Positions 1 through 16,474 of a stretch of 23,621 nucleotides of DNA are shown here, one piece after another (within the stretch, counting starts at the first letter, position 1; each line of letters begins with the position of its first letter). The position numbers and the translations under genes are program-made. The notes beneath the pieces were generated by a model. The model did not search any database, was not told where the DNA came from, and saw only the letters and a list, made by a program, of their open reading frames with translations. Source of the DNA: a virus; IMG/VR virus record IMGVR_UViG_3300042558_000354, positions 1 through 23,621 of that record; one strand, written 5' to 3'.

Positions 1-3000
1 AAAATGCTCAGGGAGTAGTAAACTCTGGAGCCTATGCACAGTGGACTAAGAAAGGAATAACTTTATATAAAGGTTCTGACTACACCGACCTTTACCACGA
101 AGCTTGGCACGAGTTTACTCAGTGGTTCTTAACTCCCCAGGAAAAAGCCATTCTTTATGGTGCAGTAAGAGCAAGAGAAGGCTCCGTTACTTTAGGAGAT
201 ATATCTGTTCCTTACTATGCACTAAGTCAACGTCAAGCTGAAGAAGTATTGGCGGAAGAGTTTAGAGCATTTTCTATTAAGAAAGCCCGTAACGAAAAAG
301 CAGAAAGCCTTGAGCCAAAAGTAAAAGGTTTCTTTGAAAGATTATATGATTGGTTGAACTGGTTATTTTCTGGCGCACCTAAAGATAAAAATGCTTCTGT
401 AGAAACCTTTAATCTGCAGAACGTAAATTCTTTGTTTGAAGCTTTCTACAATGGAGATATATCGACTACTAGAAAAGCTGCTGATAACATTATAGAAGAT
501 TCTTTAAATAGAAGTACTGCATTTAGTGTACCTATTGTTACTGACGAAGGGATTAAGCAGCGTGATATTGATCCTGCCACAGGTGCAGAGATTATTAGTT
601 ATGTAAGTTACAGTATCTACAAACAGATGCGCGACCAAAAAATCGGCATGAGTTCTTTGTTAAATCCTGAAACTAGAGCAAAACTTATTCCTGAACTATA
701 TACAGCAGTAAGAGCAGAGATTAACGACATCATTGATAAGTTAGAAGTTGATTACGAGAAAGCCATAGCTGAGGGTAAAGAGGCTACTGCTAGTATGATA
801 GATGAGCAGATGATCAACTTAATTGATTTGGTTAATGAGGACGAAGCATGGCAGCGTGTAATTGACATGCACCAAATTAGTTCTCAGGCGCAAATCTTCC
901 TTGTTGAGGAGGTAACAAATGAGCAACAGAGAACAACAATTGCCAATGGAAAGGACATTGACGATACTAAAGATGAAAAGCAAGACCAACAAGCAGATGA
1001 CCAGCCTATTGAAGAGAACACTCGTAACACAGTAGAGTACGGAGATAAATCAAATGTAAATCCTTTAGACCTCTACGATCCTTATGTGGTTGAGTTGATT
1101 AAAGGAATGCCTGATATTATTCGTTTAGGTGATAGAGAAATTCCAAGTACAGGGCGTAATTTAGGTTTACCTTTAAATGGAGACTTCCAACGCAACAAGA
1201 ACTTACTCCAGAACTTATTGTCTGGCGTAACTAACTATCAGCAAGCAATTGATACTTTAGTTATAGCGAGTGAACAACACCCACAACTTAATTATCTTAT
1301 TCAACTTCTACCTGACCCCAATGCAGAAACTCTTTCCCTAGAAGAGACTTCTCTACAGGCACAATTTGTACAAGCCTTATCTATGCCTCGCATAGACCCT
1401 TATTCTATTAAGGCAAGAGAGACTACTGAGTTAACAAATGACGGAGAAGTTAAAAATATAACCTTTAATACTTTCTACATAAGCACTCTTACTCAAGATG
1501 CTTTGTTGGAATACTTAGACGATGAGTTCCAGAAGTCTGCAGTTAATGATTTTAAATCAGAGGCTGACCAAGCTACTAGCAGACAAAGACAGTTTGTAAA
1601 CAAATCTATTAGTGGATTAGAGTTCGCTACATTCTCTACCGCTTCCGCACTTGATGAATATAAAATTACTCCTGAGACTTCAGACAAGCTTCTTTTTGAG
1701 TTTATGGATTCTGCTTTTGGTGTGGACTTATACCAGGGCATTGATCCGCAGTACTTGTTTGATGCTAAAGGAAATCTAAAACTTAGCAACAGTCGTTACA
1801 GCAAAGCAGAAAGAAACGCGCTTAACAAAGTCGCTATTGCCACTTATAATAAGGTAAAACTATACCATCTTATAAATAATCTTCCTAAAGGGATAGGCAA
1901 GTCAATGAAAGACTTAATTCCTGCTAGGATTGAAACTCCTGCAAAGACTTTTATTGAAGACGTAAAAGCATCTCTAGTAAAAGAAATAGAAGGATTAAAT
2001 ACAGTAATTGAAAAGACTGCCAAGGAAGAACACAAACAAGCACTACAAGAAATCTTAGATCTTTATAACTCATTAATTAAAGGTAATAATAATCTAAGAA
2101 ACGAAAGACAAATCCTGTTCCGTGCTATTGAGAATCACTACAACAAGGTAGTTAAGTCAGCTTCTTATTTGAATGATGAGAATAACTTAGAGTGGTCTAT
2201 TCGTGAGTGGCAGCATGTAGTAACTCAAGCAGCCCAAATAAACCAATCAACTAGCCTTAGTGAATTTACTGGTCACTTATCTACTAGTGACTTTGTACGT
2301 AACTCTAGATTAATTAACAGAGCATTTGACACAGAGACAGGCAGTCGCATTTCTAACAGAGACGGAGATAATGTACTCTTTGAATTAGTTAACATCTCTG
2401 GTTACTCAACTAAACCAGAAGGAAAGAAAACAATTAACCTTGACCCTGATGATAAGTTGATTCAAGACCTTACAGCCTTTATCAAAGACGGTATCGTAGA
2501 AAACTTACGTTATGGTGCGAAATCAACGAGTCTTGGTCTCAGAACAAATGGTTCGAGAGCAGACAGATTATTTTTTGATCGTAGTAAGTTTAGCTTTAAC
2601 GAAGAGACTGGTAGAATAATCCTAGACCCTCAGGTAATTACTACATTTAGAAACTACTTACGTTATGAACTAAGTAGAATGTATGACGACAGAGCCGAAT
2701 CTACAGCTAAAGAAAAACGTGGATTTGATTTAATTATCCTTAAAGACATCTTAGGAGATAGAGTTGATAGTTTAAAGGCAATGATTAAGAACTCTACTGA
2801 AGGCAAAGAAGCTACAGTAGAGAGCGCACTTAAAACAATCAGTGGAGCTGAGATGAATGTCCGCATAACTGATTACTTTAATAATGAAGTAGAGGCCTTT
2901 AAACAAGACTTAGCAGAAGCCCTTAACCAAGGTAATGTAGAAGCCAAAGGTAGGAAAGGAAAATCTTTAGCTCAAGTATTTAAAGATTTATACAAACAAG

Positions 3001-6000
3001 AACAACCATTAGAAGTTGTCCTTGCTGATTATATTACACACTACTATACACAACAGATTGAATTTGTACATTTGTTTGTAGGAGATCCTTCTAACTTCCA
3101 AATCAAAGGAGGTAATTGGCGTGAATTGTTCAAGCGTCTAGGTGCTTCTATTTCTCCAGGTAAGCAGCCTATTATTTCTCAACAGCTTTTAAGTTCTTGG
3201 AATAACTCAACTAACGGAGTATTGGCCCGTGGTTTAGAAAAACTTTACAAACAACCTAAGAAACAAGAACCAAGAGAATATGATGGAACTTTCAATTATG
3301 TTCAGTTTAAAGATGTTGCTTCATTTACACAAGAGCAGCATGATATTTATCGAGAAGATCTTGTAAATAACTACGCTGAGTGGTTACGTTCTACTGATAA
3401 AAAGAAACTTCCTATTGAGGCTTACCGAGCTAAAGCAGAGGAGTTGTTTGAAAAAACTATTACTGGAGCAGAAGGACAATCAAAAGAAGCGGACGGTCAA
3501 GCCTATGCTAACTTAGACTTTATAAGATTCTACCTAAACAGTATTGGTGAGTGGACTCCTAAGCAGGAGAAAGCATACCAACACGAGTTAAAGGTAGCAG
3601 CTAAAATACAAGAGTATAGAAAGAACCCAACCCAAGAGATGCGTAGTGAGGTTGAAGATTTAATATCTAATGCTAATGTAGGTATACTAGTTTCTTTGAA
3701 ATTAGGTTACTGGGGTTCTCCTACCAACAACCCTAAATACATTACTTTAGGTAAGTATTCGGTAGCTCCTCTTATTCCTTCAGCTTTGTTTGACAAAGAC
3801 CTAGAGTCTTTGATGACTGATATGTTAGAGAAAGGCGTAGACTTTGCTACGTTTGACTCAGGTAATAAGATGTCACTTCCTGTAGATAGTATTGATTTCT
3901 ACACCGAAGAAGGACAGGGAGACCAACAACGCCAAGTAATTAACAAGATTCCAGAAACAAACATAGTCAACTTCCCTATGCAGGGACTTAGAAGACAGCA
4001 GTATATTGCTCCTAAGTTTAAGAATGAAGCTACTCTTTCTACTCAGTTAGTTAAATTAATCTTTTCTAACTTTTACGTAGATGGTAAATTCTCTTCTGAG
4101 TATGCAGTTGTTCCTGGATTAGAAGATAAAATAAACAATCTACAAGCAGCCTTCATTAATAACTTACAAGTAATTGTAGAGACTGAAAAGACAAAAATTT
4201 ACTCAGCTATTGGGGCCACACTTGAAGGTGATGTAGTTACGTCTATAGATGTGCAGAAGTTTGCGGATTGGGTGCACAAAGAGTTCGATAAGAAAGATGT
4301 GCCACAATCTGTCTACAACTACTTACAAGTAGAGAACAATAGATTTAAATTCTCATTAGACGTTGCTCCTCAGCGTGCATTGTTTGAGAGTATTTTATCT
4401 TCAGCTTTAAGTAAAAGAGTAGTTAGACCAAAGATGTTTGGTGAGGCTCTTATCCAGGTTTCTTCTTTAGGATATAACAACCTTAATACCCGCTACACTA
4501 AACCTAGCAAGTCACAAGTTGCCAAATATGGTAACAGTGGACTAAGAGACTACGGTAGAATTGTAAACGGTAAACACCAACCTGCTGAAGTTAAGGTAGG
4601 ATTCAACCCTAAAAAGCACGCACCTTTACTTAAACTTCAATACCAAGGTGAGGAAATTTTAACTGTAAACAGATTAAATCAAGCCTTATTAGATGACGAA
4701 TGGGTACAGCAGCACTCAGACAGACTTACTATTGTAGGTGTGCGTATTCCTGTACAGGGTCTTAACTCTATGGAACACTTCCGCGTAAAGGAGTTTCTTC
4801 CAGAGGTAGTAGGCCCTATCATGATTGTTCCACCATCACTTGTAACTAAATCAGGATCTGACTTTGACATAGATAAATTATTTATGTTCGAGCCACAGTT
4901 GGATGATGACGCTAATCTTATTAGAAGGAAGTCTACTTTTGTTGATAATCCTAAAGCAGTCTACGAGTTTGTTAAACTAAAGAAACAGACTATTAGTGAG
5001 TTGTCTGAGTTAAATAACTTGTTAGAAAACAAAAGACAGCAGTTTATTTTAACTAACACAGTAGAGTCTTCAGAGTCTAAAACTTATGACGGTCTTATTG
5101 CAAGTAACGGAGCAATTATCCGCCCTCTAAAGAATAGCAAAAAAGAACTTAACGAACAAAAAGAAGGAGAGTTATTTGAGAAGATTGCTCTTCAAGCTAC
5201 CTCATTAGAGACTTTCTTAGAGACACAAAAAGGTGATCCTGAGATTACTGCATTACTTAAAAAGATTAAGAATGCTAAAAATCTTTTACTTCAACTTAAA
5301 GATTACTCTCCTGCAAGTATTAAAGCAGGTGCTTCTAATGCTTTAATTAGTAATATAAGTGACGTTCTTTCCGAGCCAGCAGTAATGCCTGCGTTCTTAA
5401 CTCCCAACGATTCACCTATTCTAAAAGGACTAGCCAAAGAGTACCAAGAGAAGTATCGTTCTAAGGAAGATAAGATTACATCTACTTCTATTTTCTCTCC
5501 TAGAACTTCTATTAAGATATTTAGAGAGAACGCTACTGGTAAGAAAGCACTTGGTATTGACGCAAAGACAAATGCCTTGCATAAGCTGTTCCAACAGGTA
5601 GGATTGAAATATACTTCATCTTTAGCCAATCTTTATTTCTTAAAGTCCAATAAAGATAATGAAGGACACATTATTCTAGGGGGTTTATACGACGCAAATG
5701 GTGAGCACTTAATCTCAGATATTATTAACGAGTTCATCAACGGACACGTAGACATCGAGAAAGAAGAGTGGATTAACTACTTTAATGCGGATAAGAATAG
5801 AACTAGCGTAATCTTACAAATGGTTCTTAGTGGAACTCCTATTAGAGATGCAGTGTTAATTGCTAACCAACCTATTGTTCAGCACTTCTTAAAAAATAAT
5901 AAGATAAGTCAGACTTCCGAACTCCTATCAGTTAAAAGAGCAAAGGTTATGTCTTACTTAGAAGCTGGGCTCCGTAAGTTAAACTTAAATAAGTTTATTG

Positions 6001-8780
6001 TAAGGAATAAGTCAGATGTTCCTGAAATAGGACCTACAATAGCTAAGATGTTAGAAGATGACTTATTTGCAAAACACCTAAACAATTTATCTGAGGCAAA
6101 CTATAAACCTTCGGTTGAAAATAGTCGAGCAGCATACAATGATATGTTGGACAGTAATTCTCCAGATATTGTTGCGCAGTTAGTATTCTTAAGCCAATAC
6201 TATGTAGCCTCTGAGATGAATCAAAACTTACTTGACTTAACAAGTATTGTCGACTTTAACACAGCAAGTTATAGAAACATAAATGACTTCTATCAATTAA
6301 ATAACCTAACAGAAGTAGCGGAGAATTTTAACCAAGAAGCCGTAGATAAGATTCTAAACAACAGTGTACTATCTCCGTTCAATATAAGTAACCAAGCAAT
6401 TTCTATAAGTGAGCAAATCTTTGATGTAATGGCTAGTCGAGAGTATCAAGCCATGCTTAATAATTTTGTAGAAACCAATGGTGAATTTTGGACTACTGAC
6501 CAACGTGTAACAGAAGTAAACAACTTAAACAATGCTGTAGTACATGCTCTTATTCAGCAATACTCTGAACTTGACGGTCAAGATTTCTATTCTAAGTACG
6601 GACCTAAATCCCCATTCTTAACTAAAGGGGCTACTGGAAACTTATTCAGTGAGTACATTACTTTGTTTTCTAAAGGTTCTGAGATCGCAGATGCAAATCT
6701 TAAAACCTTTACGCGCAAAAATCTATTCTTGAGAAACTTCCGCAAAAAAGACGTAGAAGGAACTAAGAAATTTTACATAGCTACTCTTACTAACGAAAAA
6801 GATGTAATCTACACTAACGCAATGCAACAGGCTTTCTCTGACGGATTGAACTATGATAAGTCAACTCCAGAGATAAATGCTAGGGTTCGTAAGTTCTTTG
6901 ATGATGTAGCCAACGCTACTATTGTAGGACAAGGTTTTTCTATTAAGTTTAGAAGTATACACCCTTATCTTCCTGTTGAAGCATTAGAAAGTGCTGCGCG
7001 TGCTTCTTTTGAATTACGTAGAGTAAAAGATCTATTGTTTAGTAAAGAAGCAAAGACTCAAAGAAAAGAAGGCAACGAAGAATTAAAAGAGTCTATGACT
7101 AGTCTTCTTGAGTTTATTCAATCGGTTCAGAAGATTTATGCTCGTAATGCCTACTCTCAGCGTAAGAAGTCACTTAATACCTGGAAGTTTTTCCCTGACT
7201 ATGTTAACTTAGCAGTAGATAAAGGTATTCGTATATCTTCTAGTTTGAAGAATGGTTTAGGGCTTGCTCTTTCATTAGCTTCAGAAAAACATCCTGTTAA
7301 CTTCAGAGGCAAAGAGTTTAAGACAGCAGAGCAAGCATTTGAATTTTATAAAGGTATTTATACAATTTCTGAGGATAACAACGCACAACTAGGTCAGGTA
7401 AAACTACTTAGAAATATTCTTGGAGAACGTTTCAAACAAAATTTACCTTTGTTTGCTGAGGTTTATAAGAAAGGCGGCTCAGAGTTTTTGCGTAAGTCTA
7501 CCTACAATCAAGGAGCAGATTTCTTAAAAACAACTACAACTAATATTGGTGGATACATAGAAGCTATTTCTAACGCATACGATGATGTATACGATGAGAT
7601 GTTTGCTGCTATGTTAGAGGCTGAAGAACAAGGACAAACTTTTGAAGAAGATACCACTGAACAATTTGTTATCCAAGGAGTAGAAGAACTTTTTAATGAG
7701 AATCCTGAGTTAGCTTCTATAGGCACACCTCAACAATACTCTGCATACTTAGATACTATCTTTCCAGATAGTAAAGTAAAAGATATTGTTTACCATGGAG
7801 GAAAAGTAAATAAAGACAGTTTTAAAAGATTTTTAAATAAAAAAGATTACGAAGAAAGAAATCCAAATTCTATAATTGGGTTTTTCTTTTCTTCTTCTAA
7901 ACAAACTGTTGCATCACAATATGCCCAAAAAGATTATGATGCTATAAAAAATGAATTAACAGGAGACCCAGAAACAGATGCTTTCATCAGTAGAAGTGCT
8001 CCTTTAAAACCAGGTAGTATATCACAAGAATTGCTTAATATTAAAAATCCTTATATTATTCAAGCGGAGGAGTGGGAAAATGAGACTTGGGTTAATAGAT
8101 TAGGTATTTTGACAGAGGAAGATAAAGACCAAAATTGGGTATCTGACTATCAGTGGACAGTTGATGCCTATGAAAAAGCAAAAAATCATTTGCAATCTTT
8201 AGGATATGATGGACTGTATATCAATTCAGATAAAAATTTATATAATAAAACAAATATAGTTGATTATATAACTGTTCAAAAGGTAGTATTTGAGCCAGAA
8301 CAAATTCACATCCTAGGAAATAAACAAGACATAGAAGGATTTAAGAAGTTTGTAAAAGATGCGCCTAAAAAGAAAGTTAAAAAATCTCAAAACAAGTTAA
8401 TTACTTCTAAAGGAGATGCGAATCCATTTTCTGAGGGAGATGGAATAGACTTTGATAACTTAGGTGACGTTACACAAAAAGGAGTTAATCTTCGTTCAAC
8501 TACCACAAAAAAGAAATCTACTGGACGTAAGCCTCCTAAGTCTATAGAGGATGAAGAAGTACCTGCAGCTCCTCCTAATTTAGGTGAAGATAGGCCTCGT
8601 CAAATTATAATACCCATGCCAGGAAATCCTATAACTCTAACTCCTGAAGATCTTACTATTGAAAGATTACAGTTAAAGTTTCCTGGTTTAAATCAAAACC
8701 AGCTTGCTGTTGTGGCTAAAAACGCACGTAAACAATTTGAAGGGTCTAGTAAAGAAAGAGATTTTGAATCTAAATGCTAA
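1..8780 (+). CDS. Giant virion RNA polymerase polyprotein (zincin + RNAP + NADAR-like + ART-like), 5' partial
   Basis: The reading frame is open from the left edge, so the real start lies outside the window; the ATG at 249 is internal. At least 2,925 codons are seen, ending in TAA. Domains in order: a zincin motif HEAWH at 96-110 with acidic residues (AEEVLAEEF) near 240-262 as a likely third zinc ligand; a long helical region; an RNA polymerase core with RIPVQGLNSM (about 4743-4773) and the catalytic loop SGSDFDIDKL (Asp codons 4860, 4866, 4872). DFDID is the magnesium-binding motif known from the crAss-like virion RNAP of Cellulophaga phage phi14:2, related to YonO and cellular RNA-dependent polymerases. 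A NADAR-like domain (about 7245-7590) and an ART-like domain (about 7779-8330) follow, then a Lys/Pro-rich tail. The family role is packaging in the virion and transcription of early genes after injection. RNAP assignment is strong; NADAR and ART are by motif. Confidence 0.85.
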   Translation, partial: NAQGVVNSGAYAQWTKKGITLYKGSDYTDLYHEAWHEFTQWFLTPQEKAILYGAVRAREGSVTLGDISVPYYALSQRQAEEVLAEEFRAFSIKKARNEKAESLEPKVKGFFERLYDWLNWLFSGAPKDKNASVETFNLQNVNSLFEAFYNGDISTTRKAADNIIEDSLNRSTAFSVPIVTDEGIKQRDIDPATGAEIISYVSYSIYKQMRDQKIGMSSLLNPETRAKLIPELYTAVRAEINDIIDKLEVDYEKAIAEGKEATASMIDEQMINLIDLVNEDEAWQRVIDMHQISSQAQIFLVEEVTNEQQRTTIANGKDIDDTKDEKQDQQADDQPIEENTRNTVEYGDKSNVNPLDLYDPYVVELIKGMPDIIRLGDREIPSTGRNLGLPLNGDFQRNKNLLQNLLSGVTNYQQAIDTLVIASEQHPQLNYLIQLLPDPNAETLSLEETSLQAQFVQALSMPRIDPYSIKARETTELTNDGEVKNITFNTFYISTLTQDALLEYLDDEFQKSAVNDFKSEADQATSRQRQFVNKSISGLEFATFSTASALDEYKITPETSDKLLFEFMDSAFGVDLYQGIDPQYLFDAKGNLKLSNSRYSKAERNALNKVAIATYNKVKLYHLINNLPKGIGKSMKDLIPARIETPAKTFIEDVKASLVKEIEGLNTVIEKTAKEEHKQALQEILDLYNSLIKGNNNLRNERQILFRAIENHYNKVVKSASYLNDENNLEWSIREWQHVVTQAAQINQSTSLSEFTGHLSTSDFVRNSRLINRAFDTETGSRISNRDGDNVLFELVNISGYSTKPEGKKTINLDPDDKLIQDLTAFIKDGIVENLRYGAKSTSLGLRTNGSRADRLFFDRSKFSFNEETGRIILDPQVITTFRNYLRYELSRMYDDRAESTAKEKRGFDLIILKDILGDRVDSLKAMIKNSTEGKEATVESALKTISGAEMNVRITDYFNNEVEAFKQDLAEALNQGNVEAKGRKGKSLAQVFKDLYKQEQPLEVVLADYITHYYTQQIEFVHLFVGDPSNFQIKGGNWRELFKRLGASISPGKQPIISQQLLSSWNNSTNGVLARGLEKLYKQPKKQEPREYDGTFNYVQFKDVASFTQEQHDIYREDLVNNYAEWLRSTDKKKLPIEAYRAKAEELFEKTITGAEGQSKEADGQAYANLDFIRFYLNSIGEWTPKQEKAYQHELKVAAKIQEYRKNPTQEMRSEVEDLISNANVGILVSLKLGYWGSPTNNPKYITLGKYSVAPLIPSALFDKDLESLMTDMLEKGVDFATFDSGNKMSLPVDSIDFYTEEGQGDQQRQVINKIPETNIVNFPMQGLRRQQYIAPKFKNEATLSTQLVKLIFSNFYVDGKFSSEYAVVPGLEDKINNLQAAFINNLQVIVETEKTKIYSAIGATLEGDVVTSIDVQKFADWVHKEFDKKDVPQSVYNYLQVENNRFKFSLDVAPQRALFESILSSALSKRVVRPKMFGEALIQVSSLGYNNLNTRYTKPSKSQVAKYGNSGLRDYGRIVNGKHQPAEVKVGFNPKKHAPLLKLQYQGEEILTVNRLNQALLDDEWVQQHSDRLTIVGVRIPVQGLNSMEHFRVKEFLPEVVGPIMIVPPSLVTKSGSDFDIDKLFMFEPQLDDDANLIRRKSTFVDNPKAVYEFVKLKKQTISELSELNNLLENKRQQFILTNTVESSESKTYDGLIASNGAIIRPLKNSKKELNEQKEGELFEKIALQATSLETFLETQKGDPEITALLKKIKNAKNLLLQLKDYSPASIKAGASNALISNISDVLSEPAVMPAFLTPNDSPILKGLAKEYQEKYRSKEDKITSTSIFSPRTSIKIFRENATGKKALGIDAKTNALHKLFQQVGLKYTSSLANLYFLKSNKDNEGHIILGGLYDANGEHLISDIINEFINGHVDIEKEEWINYFNADKNRTSVILQMVLSGTPIRDAVLIANQPIVQHFLKNNKISQTSELLSVKRAKVMSYLEAGLRKLNLNKFIVRNKSDVPEIGPTIAKMLEDDLFAKHLNNLSEANYKPSVENSRAAYNDMLDSNSPDIVAQLVFLSQYYVASEMNQNLLDLTSIVDFNTASYRNINDFYQLNNLTEVAENFNQEAVDKILNNSVLSPFNISNQAISISEQIFDVMASREYQAMLNNFVETNGEFWTTDQRVTEVNNLNNAVVHALIQQYSELDGQDFYSKYGPKSPFLTKGATGNLFSEYITLFSKGSEIADANLKTFTRKNLFLRNFRKKDVEGTKKFYIATLTNEKDVIYTNAMQQAFSDGLNYDKSTPEINARVRKFFDDVANATIVGQGFSIKFRSIHPYLPVEALESAARASFELRRVKDLLFSKEAKTQRKEGNEELKESMTSLLEFIQSVQKIYARNAYSQRKKSLNTWKFFPDYVNLAVDKGIRISSSLKNGLGLALSLASEKHPVNFRGKEFKTAEQAFEFYKGIYTISEDNNAQLGQVKLLRNILGERFKQNLPLFAEVYKKGGSEFLRKSTYNQGADFLKTTTTNIGGYIEAISNAYDDVYDEMFAAMLEAEEQGQTFEEDTTEQFVIQGVEELFNENPELASIGTPQQYSAYLDTIFPDSKVKDIVYHGGKVNKDSFKRFLNKKDYEERNPNSIIGFFFSSSKQTVASQYAQKDYDAIKNELTGDPETDAFISRSAPLKPGSISQELLNIKNPYIIQAEEWENETWVNRLGILTEEDKDQNWVSDYQWTVDAYEKAKNHLQSLGYDGLYINSDKNLYNKTNIVDYITVQKVVFEPEQIHILGNKQDIEGFKKFVKDAPKKKVKKSQNKLITSKGDANPFSEGDGIDFDNLGDVTQKGVNLRSTTTKKKSTGRKPPKSIEDEEVPAAPPNLGEDRPRQIIIPMPGNPITLTPEDLTIERLQLKFPGLNQNQLAVVAKNARKQFEGSSKERDFESKC
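7245..7590 (+). other. NADAR-like domain inside the giant RNAP protein
   Basis: This stretch contains HPVNFRGKEFKTAEQAFEF followed by YKG, then a helix and KKGGSEFL, ending in an AISNAYDDV segment. It resembles the phage branch of NADAR/YbiA-like proteins (DUF1768), where a short strand pair precedes the T/S-A-E-x-A-F/Y-x-x-x-K helix and a GG-x-x-FL motif follows. Known NADAR enzymes cleave N-glycosidic bonds and can remove ADP-ribose from guanine or from riboflavin precursors. Glu of AEQ and the following Lys would be the functional pair. The assignment rests on motif reading only; a divergent or inactive copy is possible. Confidence 0.5.
7779..8330 (+). other. ADP-ribosyltransferase-like (ART-PolyVal type) domain inside the giant RNAP protein
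   Basis: The order of motifs is that of polyvalent-protein ARTs: DIVYHGG (Tyr codon 7791, His 7794), GFFFSSSKQTVASQYA, LLNIKNPYII, LGYDGLYI and VVFEPEQIHILG. In this family His, Tyr and a late Gln/Glu hold NAD and catalyse ADP-ribose transfer to proteins or nucleic acids. About 29% G+C by hand count over 7801-8340, against about 35-38% in nearby lines, suggests a recent insertion. The target cannot be read from the sequence. Confidence 0.65.
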
Positions 8781-8812: not shown

Positions 8813-11800
8813 ATGCCTAAATTTTGTATAATTGATTTTAACAACCCTATGACTGGTAGAAGACACCCGTCTTTGATTGGCTACATGCTAAACAAACAGG
8901 GTGTTAGTGTAGATAATGTTACTGAATTACTTGACTCTGCTTACTCAACAATAACTTCAGACGGTACTAAACACTGGGGTTCTAACACTAGAGCAACTAG
9001 TGATTTCTTAGAACCACGTATTGGAGATTTTATAGATAACTTCGATATGGAAGTTGCTCCTTCTGTAATTGAGGAGATCGAGAACGTACAGAGATTCTAT
9101 GATTCTAAAAATCTAAACATAGGTTCAGACTTAAATTTAATTCAAGTTAAGGATATTGTTAAAGATGCACAAGATTACGGCATATCTTTAGAGGTAGAGA
9201 CTATTAATCCTGAAGATAAACCTTCAGATAGGATTTACAGAGTATTTCCAACAGAAATATCAGAGACAAATAACGACGCAGCCAATAGTTTTATCTATAA
9301 TCAGTTAGAGAATTACTATGAGCAAGTAGGGATGCCTAATGCTTTAAGTCGAATAGGAACTTATGTAGACGTAGTGAATCCTTCAGTAGTAAATATGCTG
9401 AAGAATATCGTAAATGATCCTAGCACTTCTCAGTTTGAGAAAGACATTCTCAACTCAATGCTGTCTGTCCTCCCACAGTTTCCAGAAATTTCTGTAAACT
9501 TTACCAAGGACTTAATGACATCAGAGATAAACCCTGAGAATATTGTACCTGCACGCTACGATTCTAAAACAAATACTATTACGTTTTATGTAGGCCCTCT
9601 TTCTGATATAGATGCTGGTCAATTTAGGCAGCTATTTTTGCATGAACTTACACATGCTCTTTTCTCCTCTACGTTAAAGAACCCTCAGACACAAGCTGAA
9701 AAAGTATTTGCTTCTGAAATAAAAAGAATATACGATTACTATAGGAGTAAGTATCCTAACGCAGCTTATGTAGGTCAGTTCTACGGACTATCAAATGAGC
9801 ACGAGTTCTTGTCTGAGTTTTTTAGTAACCCAGAGTTCCGTGCTATTCTAGAACAAGAAGCACCTCCTGTATATGGTTCTGTGTTTCAATCCGTTTTAAA
9901 TTTCTTTAAGAAAATCTTTGGTGGTTTCTTGGCAAATACCAATCGTACAGACGTTGACTACCTCAATAAACTTTCAGCTCATCTATTCAACAACGTTCTT
10001 AATACAGGCATAAACACTACGGAAGTCTACACTTCTGAAGATGCCTTTAATTATGAAGTTACAGATAAAGTTTACAATGACTTCTTAAAGAGTATGAGTT
10101 TGCCTGGACAACAGTCACTCGACCAGTTCTATGCAGCTTTAGATAGTCTTTTAAATAACCCTAAGTTAAATTGGGATTCTATTTATAAGCACGCTAATGC
10201 TACAGGTATTCAAACTCAACGATTAAACATATCACAGGAAGCATTAGAAAATCTCGAAGTCAACGCTATTATCAGAAGTGATTTAAAAACTTCCTTTAAG
10301 GGAGTAATGACTCACTTAACTGAGACTCATAGTTTCTTAAAAAACTTAGCTACAAGTATCAAAAATTTAGAAAAAGACCAAGCGTTACCTGAGGCTGAGT
10401 TATTTAAACGTGCTTATCACGCTAAACTTATAGGACAACAATACTTAGATTATATTTCAGACTTTAAAAGTTTGATGGATAATCCTAGTAGTACAAGCCC
10501 TATGGGAAGAACTATTCTTAACATTGAAGCAGTTGCTCGTGAATTGACTTTAGGGTTCGATAATATTGCCGCCCCAGCCATTGCTTCTAAGTTTGCGGAT
10601 TATTTTTGGCCTCAGACTGAGCAGTTAAAAAAACAAATTACTGCTGAGATTGAAAGACTTACAAAGATTAAAGAAACAGCAGAGCGTGCTGGTAACACTA
10701 AAAAGGTTAAGGCAACTCAAAAACTATTAAACACTGAGGTAGATAGACTTAAAAATCTAGCCACTAAAGAAAACCTAACACAAGCCCTTAAAGGTGTTCT
10801 TATTACTGGAGAATTAGGAGAGAATAATCTAGGATCTAAGTTAGGTGCATTTATGGAATCAGCTGCTTTAAGTGGTAACTTGATTACGGGTAGTTTAGCT
10901 GGATTTGTAGATGACCTTTATTCAAAGTCAGGAGAGGAAGCATTAGTTCTTGAGAGAACTATGAAAGACCTTGCTACTAGACTTCAGAATCATTTACAAT
11001 CACAGGGAAAGGTTGCTGTTACATCTTTAAACTTTGCTGATGTCTTTGGTAAGTACGTTAGAAAAGTAAAAGTTATAGAACTAAAAAACGTAGGTGGTGT
11101 GTTAGAAAAACCTGAGAGAGAGACTTACGTGTTCCAAACTGAGATGGATGAGGTTGGATATCTTAACAGACATGCGGAACTTAAGTACGAAATTACTAAG
11201 CTAGATAACAAGCCTAACAAAGACGAGGCAGACATGCTAGAATTAGACCGTCGTATAGATGAGTTAGCTGCATTTGAAGAAGAGCATTTAGAAAGTCTAT
11301 ACACTGATGAGTACCATCGTATACAAGGACTTCTTTCTGAACCTGCCCGTAAGGCACGTCAGACTATTATTGATGAGATGCGTAAGATACAAATTAACGC
11401 AACTCAAGGAGACCAGACAGACGAAGACTTAGATCGCCTAGAAGATTTAAAAATTCAGTTAGATGAATTAGAAAATCCTTTCGGTAAAACTCCTGAGCAG
11501 CAAGAGATTGCTTATAACATTCAAGAGTGGAAACAAGCTAGGCAAAATGCTGAGTTGTACACTTATAGAATAACAGATGAGAATCGTGCTATCTTCAACG
11601 ACTTTTTCGAAAGTAAGAAAGCAAAGGTTACTGAATATAAATTAGCTTTAGCTAACTTATTAAATATACCTGACCCGCAGACATTTCCTGACTTAGACGC
11701 AGAAATATCTCAGAGACTACAAACAACTACTTCAGATAGAATTGAACTTGCTAAAGCCCAATTAAAAGTAGCTGAGAATGACTTACAAAAATTTAAAAGA

Positions 11801-14746
11801 AACAACGTAGTAAAGAAGATTAGTCCAGAGTTCTACGAGCAGCGTAACTTTATCCTAGAAGGGATAGAAAACATCCACTCTAAGTACAGGACTGATATGG
11901 AGAGTAAAGAAGCCATAGGTGACTTATATCGTGAGCTATTTACTCTTTTAAAGGCGTATAAAAATAGAGACGGTGAGTACGAAGGTTCTAAAGTCCCTAC
12001 AGAGTTAGTTGAATACTTGACTGAGGATGGGGAACTTATCAGAGTTAGTGTTGCTACTCGTGTAAAAGACATTGAGAATAAAATTGACGCTATCCGCGAT
12101 GAGATGACTCGTGGTCTTCGTATGTCTAAAGAAGACAAGGACAACTTAATAGCTTTGTTTAATCAGCTTGGAGAGATCCAGGAAAGAACTACCACCGAAG
12201 ATTATAAAAGAATAGTTAAAATTGAGCAGGCAAAAGCGCGTACATCTGCTATAGCTGAGTTAGGAGATAAAGCTGCTAACATGACTAATGCTCAGATAAA
12301 CAGAAAAATTCTTCAAACTTACTATAAGTCTGAGTGGTACAAACAAAACCATAGAGATTTTAAGGCGACTGGAGAAGGTAGTCCTCTATTTCATTGGAGA
12401 GTTACTCTACCTACTAATCCTGCTTTTATTTCCGAAGAAGAACCTTCTTTCCGTTGGACTACTATCGAAGTAAATGATGCGGTTGATCCTAATACAGGAC
12501 AACCACTCTACATTAACAAGGCTGTAAGAAACTTTAGATACAGTAAACGAGTTCCTTTGAAGCGTACAAGTAGTTTCAGGAATAACGATTATGCTAAGTT
12601 AGATGCTACTGAACGCGAAATTATTGGAGAAGTAGTTGCTCAGTTAGGACAACTTGAAGACGGATTACCTGTAAAACTTAAGTTAGGAACTGAACTTCCT
12701 GCTTATATGAAGTCTGGACTTGAAGGTCTTAATGGAAGAGTAGGTAATCTTAAAGACCAAATTACAGGAGTTGCTTCTAACTTATGGGATAAGGCTTCAG
12801 GTAAAGACCAAGAAGACCCTACAGACAAAGTAAGTTTACTAGATAAACTAAGTGGAAACAAGTCTGAACTTAACAAGTACAGCGATAGAATCCATTTAAA
12901 GTATGTAAGTCCTATTGAGCCAGAAAAAATGAGCATTAACTTCTTTGAGTCAGTTACTCAATATGGAGCAGATGCTCTCCGATTCAAAAACTTGTATTCA
13001 AATATGGCTTACATTTTTGGTACAAGAGACTTGGTTAATAAGAATTTAGCAGGAACTACTACAGCTAACGTAGTTAATAACTTAATTGAACGTAAAATAA
13101 ACGGTAAATCCCGCGTATCTCTTACAGGTAATCCTATGTTAAATGCTCTAGGATACTTAAGTGATAAAGCTATTGTAGGACTTACAGCCAAAGCAACTCT
13201 TTCTGTCAACTTACCTTCAGCTATAAAGAACTTTTTGGCAGGTAGTTACAACATATATACTCAAGCAGGTCGTTTTGGACTAAGCCAAAAAGATATTGCA
13301 ATAGGTAAAGGAGTTGCAGCAGCTCACGTAAAAGATTTTTACAGAGCAAGTATAGAAGACGGTGTATCAACTCCTTATATCCAAAAGGTAAGGTACTTTA
13401 ATATTATGCCAGACGACCACTTGAATGAAGTCGGCAAGAATATGTACCGTACTAGTTTAGATAAGACTGATAACTACAATCTATTTAAGATGTACGGTTT
13501 TACTAGACAGGCTTTAGAATTTGAAATGAGGGTTGCTGTAGCCGAAGCTTTGTCTAAACAGCACTTAATCGAGCTAAACAACGGACAGTTTGTGCCTATA
13601 ATGGACGCATACGAAACCGTTAGCGGATTATTAGTTCCTCGTGCAGATATCAAAGACCTAGCAGGATTCTCTAACCAAGAAAGTTATTTTAAAGGTAGAT
13701 TAAACTTAATCAATAGTTTGATTCACGGAGCCTATGGTGCTATGGACAAGGCTGAATACCAACGTTATGCTCTTGGTCGTTTTATAATGATGATGCGTAA
13801 CTGGTTTGGTTATCAGTGGTTAAGTAGATTTGGTTCACGCAGAATGTCTATTAGAGCAGGTATGGAATTTGAAGGTATGTACAGAACTATGTGGAACGTA
13901 GTAGGATACAAAGGCAAGTTCTGGCAGCTTATGAGTTACTCTGCTACCTCAGATCTCTTAAGTAATAACGAGAAAGAAAACCTTAAGGGCGTTCTTCTCG
14001 ATACTATGGGTATGTCGGTTATCATGGGTCTTAGTTACCTAGTAAGTCAAGCTGTTTACTCAGATGACGATGATGATATAGATAATCCAATGGCTTATTT
14101 AGCTTTATATAATCTTCTTTACTTAGAGGACGAATTAAATACTCTTCATCCTATCTTTGGTCCAGCGGCTATTGGTTACGCTCGTATTGAAAATAAGGTA
14201 AGCGGAGATAACTTTGCTACCTACTATTTCAAGAAATACTTTTTTGAACCTTTCCGCGTAACTCAAGACATTACTAGAGCAATGATAGAGTACTCTCCAT
14301 TTGGAGATTTAGGAATGTTTGACGAATACGTACCTTTAAGTAAGAATGGTAAAGTAATGAATCCTAATCGTTATAAGCCAGATCCCTTCTTACAAGGTAT
14401 GCCTGACGTATTAGCTCGTACTCTTAAACTATTTGCATTAGATAAATCAGTAAACTATATAATAGGAAACCAAGAGTTTATGTATCGTAAATACGACTAC
14501 TTAAATCCTAAGTACTTTACTGAGTCTTATGAAAAAGAATTAAGACAAGCTAAAAGAGGACAGCGTTCTAACAAACTTGAGATAAAAGCAATCAGAGAAG
14601 AGATTAATATTATTGAAGATCCAGATACCAAGGCTCTTCTTTATGAAAAAATTGATCGTCTTGAAAATGAAATAGAAGCAGATAAAGAAAGACAAGAGAT
14701 ACTGCAACAAAACTATGCAGACTACCAAGCTGCTGACAGAAAGTAA
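8813..14746 (+). CDS. Giant internal virion protein with zincin metallopeptidase domain
   Basis: This 1,977-residue protein follows the RNAP gene after a 32-base gap. Residues 277-281 are HELTH (HExxH zinc site), preceded by the strand NTITFYVGPL and followed by NEHEFLSEFF (residues 328-337), where a Glu is the probable third zinc ligand. This layout is typical of metallopeptidase domains in phage polyvalent proteins. Residues about 600-650 and 785-915 are charged and heptad-like (coiled coil), as is the C-terminus (about 1905-1977). Residues about 1725-1750 form a hydrophobic segment followed by five Asp. Together with its place beside the virion RNAP, this suggests an ejected cargo protein that may cleave proteins during capsid maturation or after entry and may contact the host membrane. 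Its closest named relative is not recognised. The upstream bases are A-rich without a Shine-Dalgarno, normal for these hosts. Confidence 0.8.
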   Translation: MPKFCIIDFNNPMTGRRHPSLIGYMLNKQGVSVDNVTELLDSAYSTITSDGTKHWGSNTRATSDFLEPRIGDFIDNFDMEVAPSVIEEIENVQRFYDSKNLNIGSDLNLIQVKDIVKDAQDYGISLEVETINPEDKPSDRIYRVFPTEISETNNDAANSFIYNQLENYYEQVGMPNALSRIGTYVDVVNPSVVNMLKNIVNDPSTSQFEKDILNSMLSVLPQFPEISVNFTKDLMTSEINPENIVPARYDSKTNTITFYVGPLSDIDAGQFRQLFLHELTHALFSSTLKNPQTQAEKVFASEIKRIYDYYRSKYPNAAYVGQFYGLSNEHEFLSEFFSNPEFRAILEQEAPPVYGSVFQSVLNFFKKIFGGFLANTNRTDVDYLNKLSAHLFNNVLNTGINTTEVYTSEDAFNYEVTDKVYNDFLKSMSLPGQQSLDQFYAALDSLLNNPKLNWDSIYKHANATGIQTQRLNISQEALENLEVNAIIRSDLKTSFKGVMTHLTETHSFLKNLATSIKNLEKDQALPEAELFKRAYHAKLIGQQYLDYISDFKSLMDNPSSTSPMGRTILNIEAVARELTLGFDNIAAPAIASKFADYFWPQTEQLKKQITAEIERLTKIKETAERAGNTKKVKATQKLLNTEVDRLKNLATKENLTQALKGVLITGELGENNLGSKLGAFMESAALSGNLITGSLAGFVDDLYSKSGEEALVLERTMKDLATRLQNHLQSQGKVAVTSLNFADVFGKYVRKVKVIELKNVGGVLEKPERETYVFQTEMDEVGYLNRHAELKYEITKLDNKPNKDEADMLELDRRIDELAAFEEEHLESLYTDEYHRIQGLLSEPARKARQTIIDEMRKIQINATQGDQTDEDLDRLEDLKIQLDELENPFGKTPEQQEIAYNIQEWKQARQNAELYTYRITDENRAIFNDFFESKKAKVTEYKLALANLLNIPDPQTFPDLDAEISQRLQTTTSDRIELAKAQLKVAENDLQKFKRNNVVKKISPEFYEQRNFILEGIENIHSKYRTDMESKEAIGDLYRELFTLLKAYKNRDGEYEGSKVPTELVEYLTEDGELIRVSVATRVKDIENKIDAIRDEMTRGLRMSKEDKDNLIALFNQLGEIQERTTTEDYKRIVKIEQAKARTSAIAELGDKAANMTNAQINRKILQTYYKSEWYKQNHRDFKATGEGSPLFHWRVTLPTNPAFISEEEPSFRWTTIEVNDAVDPNTGQPLYINKAVRNFRYSKRVPLKRTSSFRNNDYAKLDATEREIIGEVVAQLGQLEDGLPVKLKLGTELPAYMKSGLEGLNGRVGNLKDQITGVASNLWDKASGKDQEDPTDKVSLLDKLSGNKSELNKYSDRIHLKYVSPIEPEKMSINFFESVTQYGADALRFKNLYSNMAYIFGTRDLVNKNLAGTTTANVVNNLIERKINGKSRVSLTGNPMLNALGYLSDKAIVGLTAKATLSVNLPSAIKNFLAGSYNIYTQAGRFGLSQKDIAIGKGVAAAHVKDFYRASIEDGVSTPYIQKVRYFNIMPDDHLNEVGKNMYRTSLDKTDNYNLFKMYGFTRQALEFEMRVAVAEALSKQHLIELNNGQFVPIMDAYETVSGLLVPRADIKDLAGFSNQESYFKGRLNLINSLIHGAYGAMDKAEYQRYALGRFIMMMRNWFGYQWLSRFGSRRMSIRAGMEFEGMYRTMWNVVGYKGKFWQLMSYSATSDLLSNNEKENLKGVLLDTMGMSVIMGLSYLVSQAVYSDDDDDIDNPMAYLALYNLLYLEDELNTLHPIFGPAAIGYARIENKVSGDNFATYYFKKYFFEPFRVTQDITRAMIEYSPFGDLGMFDEYVPLSKNGKVMNPNRYKPDPFLQGMPDVLARTLKLFALDKSVNYIIGNQEFMYRKYDYLNPKYFTESYEKELRQAKRGQRSNKLEIKAIREEINIIEDPDTKALLYEKIDRLENEIEADKERQEILQQNYADYQAADRK

Positions 14747-14828: not shown

Positions 14829-15140
14829 ATGGCATGGGACATTTCTCAAAAATTAGACGAGCAATCTAAGAAGTTAAGACAGATTGCTGCAAGTACAGGA
14901 CTAATGGCAGGAGCTGGAGGTTTTGTACGTTACTCAACAGGTACAGTTACTAATGTACAGCTTTCTGCACTTGTACCTCAAGAAGATACAATATTTACTT
15001 CATTTAGAGTTAATGGAGTAGAGTGCTTATCTACAAATGGTATGAGTGGAGTTACCTTTAAACAATTCACATACTTACCAGGCGGAGGAATCATTACAGG
15101 ATTTGCTATCTCTCAAGGTAGTGTAATTGCTTACAAGTAA
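14829..15140 (+). CDS. Small glycine-rich probable virion protein
   Basis: This gene encodes 103 residues of unknown family. The first 20 residues are a charged helix (DISQKLDEQSKKLRQIAA), followed by a short Ala/Gly-rich stretch (GLMAGAGGFV) and a beta-rich, Thr/Ser/Gly-rich remainder. No signal peptide or clear membrane helix is seen. It is the first gene after the 14752 promoter, and its TAA stop shares its last base with the ATG of the next gene (TAATG), so the two are probably translationally coupled. Position before a repeat-type tail protein suggests a small structural, fibre-base or chaperone role, but this is inference from context only. Confidence 0.75.
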   Translation: MAWDISQKLDEQSKKLRQIAASTGLMAGAGGFVRYSTGTVTNVQLSALVPQEDTIFTSFRVNGVECLSTNGMSGVTFKQFTYLPGGGIITGFAISQGSVIAYK

Positions 15141-16474
15141 TGATTGGGATTGGTATTGGTATTGGGCTAGTAGGAGGTGGTATAGTAAATCAACTTCCTT
15201 TTAGATTTACAGTAAATACAAATAATACCTCAGCAGGTAGTAGTACTAGCACGCAGTTCAAGTTACCCTTAGTTTCTTCGGGAACTATAAATGCCATAGT
15301 AGATTGGGGAGATGGAACTTCTAGTACTATTACTACCTGGAACCAAGCAGAAGTAACACATACCTACGCTACCGCAGGTGTATATGATATTAAAATTACT
15401 GGAGTACTTAGAGGATGGTTATTTAGTAATACGGGAGATAAATTAAAAATCCTTGATATTATTAGTTGGGGTATTTATACAGAAACTGGATATTCAGGAT
15501 TTGACGGAGCATTTTGGGGATGTTCTAATATGAACTCATCTGCTACTGACAAACCTTTATTGCTTCAAGGAACATTATGGAATTTTTTTCGTGGATGTTC
15601 TGCTTTTAATGGCAACATAGGCAATTGGAATATGTCACAAGTATCTCAAATAAGAAATTTCTTTAATGGATGTACTAATTTTAATCAAAATATTAGTGAA
15701 TGGGATGTGTCTAATGTGATTGATATGCAATCAATGTTTGAATCTGCAACTGCATTTAACCAAAATATTGGAGCATGGAATGTATCTAATGTGACAAATT
15801 TCTCATCTATGTTCTCCAACGCAACCGCTTTTAACAATGGTGGCTCAGCAGATATAAATAATTGGACAATTAGAACCGCAAGTGCAGTAAATATGGCAAG
15901 TATGTTTAGTGGTGCAACAACATTTAACCAGAACATAGGAGCATGGAATACAAGTGAGGTGACTGATATGAGTTTAATGTTTTTGGGTGCTAATTTATTC
16001 AATCAAAATATTGGTTTATGGAATGTGTCAAATGTAACAAGTATGACTTATATGTTTTATGGAACTTCGTTTTTTAATCAAAATATTGGTTCATGGAATA
16101 CCAGTAAGGTAACAGATATGAGTGCTATGTTCTATTCGGCACCTGCCTTTAATCAAAATATTAGTTCATGGAATGTGTCAAATGTAACGAATATGTTAAG
16201 AATGTTCCAAGATGCAACCGCATTCAACCAAGATATTGGTTCATGGAATGTATCAAACGTAACAAGCTTTTCCTTATTTATGTCGGGTAAAACCGCAGCC
16301 AACTATTCAGCAGCAAACCTTAATAGCATTTACAATGGATGGAGTTCAAGACCCGTTCAACCTAACTTGAGTATTAGTTTTGGAAGTATTAAGTACACTG
16401 CAGAGGCTCAAGTAGGTAAGAATATTTTAGACTTTGCACCTAACAACTGGACAATAGTAGACGGAGGTATATAA
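15140..16474 (+). CDS. BspA/DUF285-repeat protein, putative receptor-binding or tail-fibre protein
   Basis: The protein has 444 residues. Residues 1-20 are Gly/Ile-rich (GIGIGIGLVGGGIV). Residues about 45-95 look like a PKD-type Ig fold (VDWGDGTSS, then HTYATAGVYDIKITG). Residues 156-386 are nine repeats of a 25-residue unit of the form FNQNIGxWNVSNVTxMxxMF, one unit having 31 residues. This is the BspA-like leucine-rich repeat (DUF285), common in surface proteins of Bacteroidota, mycoplasmas and some eukaryotes and linked to adhesion. A closing beta-rich part ends in NWTIVDGG. In a phage late block it most likely binds a host surface receptor. No secretion signal suitable for a host adhesin is seen, which supports a virion location. 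It is coupled by TAATG to the genes on both sides. Confidence 0.85.
   Translation: MIGIGIGIGLVGGGIVNQLPFRFTVNTNNTSAGSSTSTQFKLPLVSSGTINAIVDWGDGTSSTITTWNQAEVTHTYATAGVYDIKITGVLRGWLFSNTGDKLKILDIISWGIYTETGYSGFDGAFWGCSNMNSSATDKPLLLQGTLWNFFRGCSAFNGNIGNWNMSQVSQIRNFFNGCTNFNQNISEWDVSNVIDMQSMFESATAFNQNIGAWNVSNVTNFSSMFSNATAFNNGGSADINNWTIRTASAVNMASMFSGATTFNQNIGAWNTSEVTDMSLMFLGANLFNQNIGLWNVSNVTSMTYMFYGTSFFNQNIGSWNTSKVTDMSAMFYSAPAFNQNISSWNVSNVTNMLRMFQDATAFNQDIGSWNVSNVTSFSLFMSGKTAANYSAANLNSIYNGWSSRPVQPNLSISFGSIKYTAEAQVGKNILDFAPNNWTIVDGGI
15605..16297 (+). repeat. Nine tandem DUF285 coding repeats (75-bp period)
   Basis: Eight 75-bp units and one 93-bp unit (the fourth) encode the repeats of the tail protein. 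Several neighbours share long near-identical DNA, for example versions of TCATGGAATGTGTCAAATGT near 16106, 16167 and 16241. Such units can expand, shrink or shuffle by recombination. Confidence 0.85.

Follow-up and report, generated by a model that had tools for sequence, protein, structure and literature searches.

An ART-PolyVal cassette with conserved ends and variable cores in a crAss-like virion RNA polymerase gene, a probable exchangeable effector module

ADP-ribosyltransferases (ARTs) are already known as parts of phage virion RNA polymerases (RNAPs): according to Iyer et al. 2017 (PMC5512222), polyvalent-protein ARTs of the Tox-ART-HYD2 clade are fused to N4-like virion RNAPs and were proposed to act like T4 Alt. 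The window analysed here, a 23,621-base virus record (IMGVR_UViG_3300042558_000354) whose first frame is open at its 5' end, carries an ART domain in a comparable setting; the Pfam family is the same, the domain is likewise fused to a virion RNAP in a giant protein, and action after injection is likewise predicted. However, the polymerase is N4-like there and of the crAss-like DFDID type here, and the organisation found in the window, a cassette with ends conserved at the DNA level and with variable cores, is not described in the accessible part of that source. The closest functional model is T4 Alt, an ART that the phage packs into its head and injects together with its DNA; it is of the R-S-E clade and a protein in its own right (PMC5512222), whereas here an ART-PolyVal domain lies within the RNAP frame.

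A second domain, located ahead of the ART in the same frame, resembles the NADAR family (YbiA, DarT1-associated and phage NADARs; PMC11543638, PMC9503650) in its fold and in the active-site Glu and Lys, but differs in being below Pfam detection, in lacking the third acid or His and the Trp, and in being eroded in relatives. In the DarT1-NADAR toxin-antitoxin pair (DarTG1) an ART likewise stands beside a NADAR fold; the window does not belong to that system, since its ART is an ART-PolyVal and not a DarT, its NADAR is degenerate and no fixed pairing is found. Polymorphic bacterial toxins combine a constant flank with an exchangeable enzymatic module. The ART cassette is alike in this respect, but it would be phage cargo, it is internal and conserved at both of its ends, and no immunity gene was identified. 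No description of an ART or NADAR in crAss-like RNAPs was found in the literature searched, which omits most subscription papers; relative to that literature, what looks new is that the polymerase is crAss-like and that conserved ends enclose a variable core.

In loci L001 and L002 the RNAP region is 96% identical to that of the window, and there the conserved tail comes immediately after the NADAR-like domain, with no ART in between. DNA similarity between the window and L001, its closest relative, ends at 7642 and is back by about 8421. The ART is likewise missing from the RNAP frame of the other lineages that carry this NADAR-like domain; altogether the domain was found without an ART in L001, L002 and L034-L038. 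Since these lineages share the domain and have no ART in that frame, the NADAR-like domain is the older of the two here. The alignments identify the ART-PolyVal domain as a recent insertion, placed after the NADAR-fold domain, which was already there, and before the conserved tail of the RNAP.

The identity of the inserted domain is secure and beyond chance at the level of sequence, and the ART call of the sequence-only reading is thereby confirmed. Searches of the full-length RNAP-frame protein against Pfam and PHROGs gave nothing useful, and Pfam domain detection on it required domain slices; the C-terminal slice matched ART-PolyVal (PF18760) with an E-value of 1.9e-10 and 42.1 bits, against a cut-off of 31.2. 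The AlphaFold model of the ART has a mean predicted local distance difference test score (pLDDT) of 79, with a moderate middle part (about 66-80), and its best PDB match is chain B of 9k3a, a pre-ejectosome protein of cyanophage A4 (probability 0.97, E 2.9e-3), followed by weak matches to tankyrases; a PDB sequence search with the ART profile gave chance matches only, and no match to DarT was obtained for the window ART in the Pfam search. The motifs VYHGGK (7788-7805), FFFSSS (7881-7898) and EQIHIL (from 8298) are all in the RNAP frame. The active-site configuration of the ART-PolyVal family is H-Y-D (PMC5512222). In the window, where the residues were assigned from motifs and not from a solved structure, both the first-motif His (H2598) and the Asp within GYDGL (D2736, 8208-8210) are present.

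The ART core is variable and its borders are conserved. In related loci a near-identical YSQYLDTIFPDSKVKDIVYH stands before the core and EQIHILGNKQDIEGF after it, and core length ranges from about 65 to 240 residues; in the ART model the borders correspond to the N-terminal helix and first strand and to the last strand and helix. Scanning of metagenomic collections with a degenerate N-border pattern returned at least 79 viral contigs (here and below, duplicate contigs inflate some counts), and only 5 contigs with the pattern were found in the bacterial genome collection. No named phage was seen to carry the cassette: tblastn of window 7113-8400 against the INPHARED phages gave no match, and the short cassette gave generic partial matches only.

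Border conservation was compared with that of the polymerase in 32 loci also holding the RNAP (478 pairs), gathered by motifs other than the N-border, the C-border being partly a collection motif at the amino-acid level. Mean identity was 25.6% for the RNAP and 83.3% for the N-border; at identical residues, codon agreement reached 79.5% in the N-border, where the RNAP of these phages leads one to expect 51.2%, and 72.3% in the C-border, against an expected 54.0%. Codon sharing above the RNAP expectation points to exchange of DNA. Alternatively, the borders might be kept for a shared job at the protein ends (packaging, processing or folding), while the cores diverge fast and recombination is scarce. 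This account is rather unlikely: it agrees with the position of the borders at the terminal helices and strands of the ART model and with their high amino-acid conservation, but it leaves unexplained both the synonymous codons held in common beyond the RNAP expectation and the behaviour of the cores. Indeed, 89 distinct cassettes, with 87 usable cores, formed 15 clusters and 54 singletons, so that core differences exceed divergence alone; near-identical cores are found with different leaders (core identity 98.6% for L013/L125, 90% for L012/L018 and 88% for L099/L191), and borders are hybrid in L061 and L088. The borders differ from those of the window in L003, although its core is the nearest to the window core (66-67% over the region). 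Since nearly identical cores stand behind different leaders, ends and cores have been reshuffled, and the cassette is, on the evidence of the alignments, both inserted and mosaic in structure. Separately, L186 carries two tandem ART cassettes in one frame (2-4018, minus strand).

Most of the mapped cassettes, counted with duplicates, are located in RNAP frames (21), in gene 2, the giant gene after the RNAP (30, mostly in its N-terminal part, ahead of the conserved part), or in frames of their own on a stretch that also holds the RNAP or gene 2 (33). The cassette zone also hosts canonical NADARs (50-63 bits), DUF7831 and GNAT-like acetyltransferases (weak to moderate match). Many unrelated domains, GNAT-like acetyltransferases included, stand behind a related leader, GVxELFDSNPELANxVYEALGF (L004 9964-10581; L013, L018, L088, L135 and others). 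The end of the RNAP core after LDYLINKYDW is a general slot for accessory domains. It was also observed that in L019, L064, L066 and L086-L122 LDYLINKYDW is followed by a common SHATALDYLINKYDW and then by entirely different domains (NADAR, DUF7831, others).

The older domain of the window has no match above the curated cut-off of Pfam NADAR (PF08719), and a PDB sequence search with its profile gave chance matches only. Nevertheless, profile and model comparisons support a NADAR fold or remote NADAR homology, in agreement with what the sequence-only reading had proposed. In hhalign, the family of the window domain matched 9 true NADARs (YbiA and phage proteins) with a probability of 94.8% and a score of 51.7; the maximum for 60 column-shuffled alignments was 3.7%, with a score of 21.2, and the ART profile gave 0.2%. 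The AlphaFold model has a mean pLDDT of 82, above 90 over most of the core. Foldseek on the viral structures of BFVD retrieved mainly viral NADAR proteins, the top ones with probability 0.97-1.00, E 0.02-0.1 and template modelling (TM) scores of 0.41-0.52; in the PDB the best TM-score was that of NADAR 8bau (0.45), not significant with E 4.7. The motif AEQAFEFYK (7326-7352, in the RNAP frame) holds E2443 and K2450, which correspond to the conserved pair E43/K50 of the Phytophthora NADAR (PMC11543638). The third catalytic residue, Glu or Asp in NADARs and His in phages, and the D..W motif are lost: in place of the LvE/LTH and D..WG of NADARs, the window has FLRKSTYNQGADFLKT. In the sister gene of L001, 85-87% identical over this domain, the essential Lys is replaced by Ala, and in other relatives the Glu position is occupied by Gly, Met or Trp; E and K are not retained together in the relatives. 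Since the third acid or His and the Trp are lost, and E or K is lost in close relatives, the window domain is, from its residues, probably not an active hydrolase. It may represent a worn-down former cargo domain, retained for fold or binding and not as an antidote to the ART.

The two domains had been proposed to lie side by side as a self-protected ADP-ribosylation tool. Both patterns do lie in the frame with DFDID, 3..8780, inside 7245-8330, and the domains are adjacent in it, though separated by a linker of about 60 residues and with the modelled start of the NADAR-like domain slightly upstream (about 7209). A dedicated pair, in which the ART marks a target and the NADAR reverses the mark or counters a DarT-type defence, is nonetheless improbable. 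This arrangement has parallels: canonical Pfam NADARs, retaining E...K and the phage-type His, share one crAss-like RNAP frame with an ART cassette, in opposite order, in L005 (residues 2015-2163 and 2403-2524) and L009 (3029-3188 and 3217-3363), and in L158 one small frame (1-1509, minus strand) has a leader, then a NADAR-like domain and directly after it an ART cassette. On the other hand, the residues lost from the window domain and its relatives, together with the occurrence of the domain without an ART in the nearest relatives, speak against self-protection, and a survey of 50 deduplicated loci, gathered either through likeness of the RNAP or with the NADAR-like query of L064, revealed no association: an ART was present in 1 of 5 loci with a canonical NADAR and in 7 of 45 without (Fisher p = 1; a small sample of limited stretches, with low power). 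General NADAR-ART pairing is not supported. As a separate observation, a canonical NADAR (73.4 bits) is found inside a 3410-residue protein, annotated as hypothetical, of Microcoleus phage OR578708 (L217, 322-10554, minus strand).

It is fairly probable that the ART is an exchangeable effector cassette on virion cargo, with delivery and enzymatic activity as its presumed parts. In phi-crAss001 the RNAP-associated proteins are virion cargo (PMC10172136), and by analogy the ART protein would be packaged and ejected along with the polymerase; the delivery suggested by the sequence-only reading is therefore a reasonable supposition. After refolding, the ART could modify a host target early in infection using host NAD+, in a way comparable to T4 Alt. 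The shared ends would act as homology arms for core swapping, and core variation may reflect an arms race. A broader proposal, for which the balance is about even, is that environmental crAss-like phages practise modular effector exchange on their virion cargo. The short DNA-conserved borders would be recombination handles at which ART cores are exchanged in the polymerase and in the protein next to it; related leaders would bring in further kinds of domain, acetyltransferases among them, and the injected enzyme would differ from lineage to lineage.

Several points weigh against the exchangeable effector. The 478 pairs of the codon comparison come from 32 loci and are not independent, and protein-level selection accounts for part of the border conservation. 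Moreover, for 32 mapped cassettes the stored stretch, often a short one, contains no RNAP and no gene 2, so some cassettes may be ordinary stand-alone genes. Finally, the second motif of the window reads GFFF, with F2628 at the Tyr position of the family H-Y-D motif. That the ART fold is enzymatically inactive in this phage, a purely structural part of the ejected protein, is quite doubtful: the Phe and the moderate confidence in the middle of the model would suit it, but the His and Asp motifs are retained, the frame is intact and the residue at this position switches between Tyr and Phe from cassette to cassette.

The coordinates of the features are collected in Table 1. The polymerase belongs with the crassvirus virion RNAPs, being a giant RNAP with a DxDxD motif and related to crassvirus RNAP genes; in tblastn, the RNAP region of the window matched such genes with a best E of 4e-14, examples being crAssphage KP06_gp44 (5e-8) and PhiCrAssBcn phages (4e-10). 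By analogy with phi-crAss001, the gene 2 protein may be packaged in the virion as well. A conserved DF(E/S/T)xxC ends the RNAP frame (8750-8780) in all relatives compared. HExxH motifs, metallopeptidase-like as in polyvalent proteins, are found in the RNAP frame (HEAWH, 96-110) and in gene 2 (HELTH, 9641-9655). Further downstream, the protein encoded by 15140-16474 contains multiple copies of MFxxAxxFNQNIxxWNVSNVT, judged by eye to be BspA-like repeats.

Table 1. Features of the window, with position, strand and basis.
Feature	Position	Strand	Basis or remark
crAss-like virion RNAP frame	3..8780	+	2925 aa, 5' end outside window; tblastn to crassvirus RNAP genes
RNAP catalytic motif DFDID	4860..4874	+	within frame 3..8780
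NADAR-fold domain, divergent	~7209..7592	+	hhalign 94.8% with controls; AlphaFold and Foldseek on viral structures
E2443	7329-7331	+	NADAR-fold domain
K2450	7350-7352	+	NADAR-fold domain
Segment without counterpart in closest relative L001	7643..8362	+	length 720 nt in the alignment; right boundary soft, as far as ~8420
Cassette leader GVEELFNENPELASIGTPQQ	7677..7736	+	
ART domain	~7713-8372	+	Pfam ART-PolyVal match
Conserved N-border YSAYLDTIFPDSKVKDIVYH, last residue catalytic-type His H2598	7737..7796	+	
Variable ART core, 167 aa, with F2628 and D2736	7797..8297	+	
Conserved C-border EQIHILGNKQDIEGF	8298..8342	+	
C-terminal tail, common to ART-less relative	8421..8780	+	alignment to relative
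Gene 2, giant gene after RNAP, RNAP-associated cargo candidate	8813..14746	+	weak match to crassvirus 'putative RNA-polymerase subunit' proteins

If the exchangeable-cassette reading is true, the pairing of NADAR and ART would cease to be anecdotal and become a question for testing across many phages. The conserved ends would serve as a DNA signature by which many new phage effectors could be found, and would open a direct route to asking which host targets drive their diversity. crAss-like phages would then diversify their probably injected early-infection enzymes by swapping ready-made modules between conserved ends.

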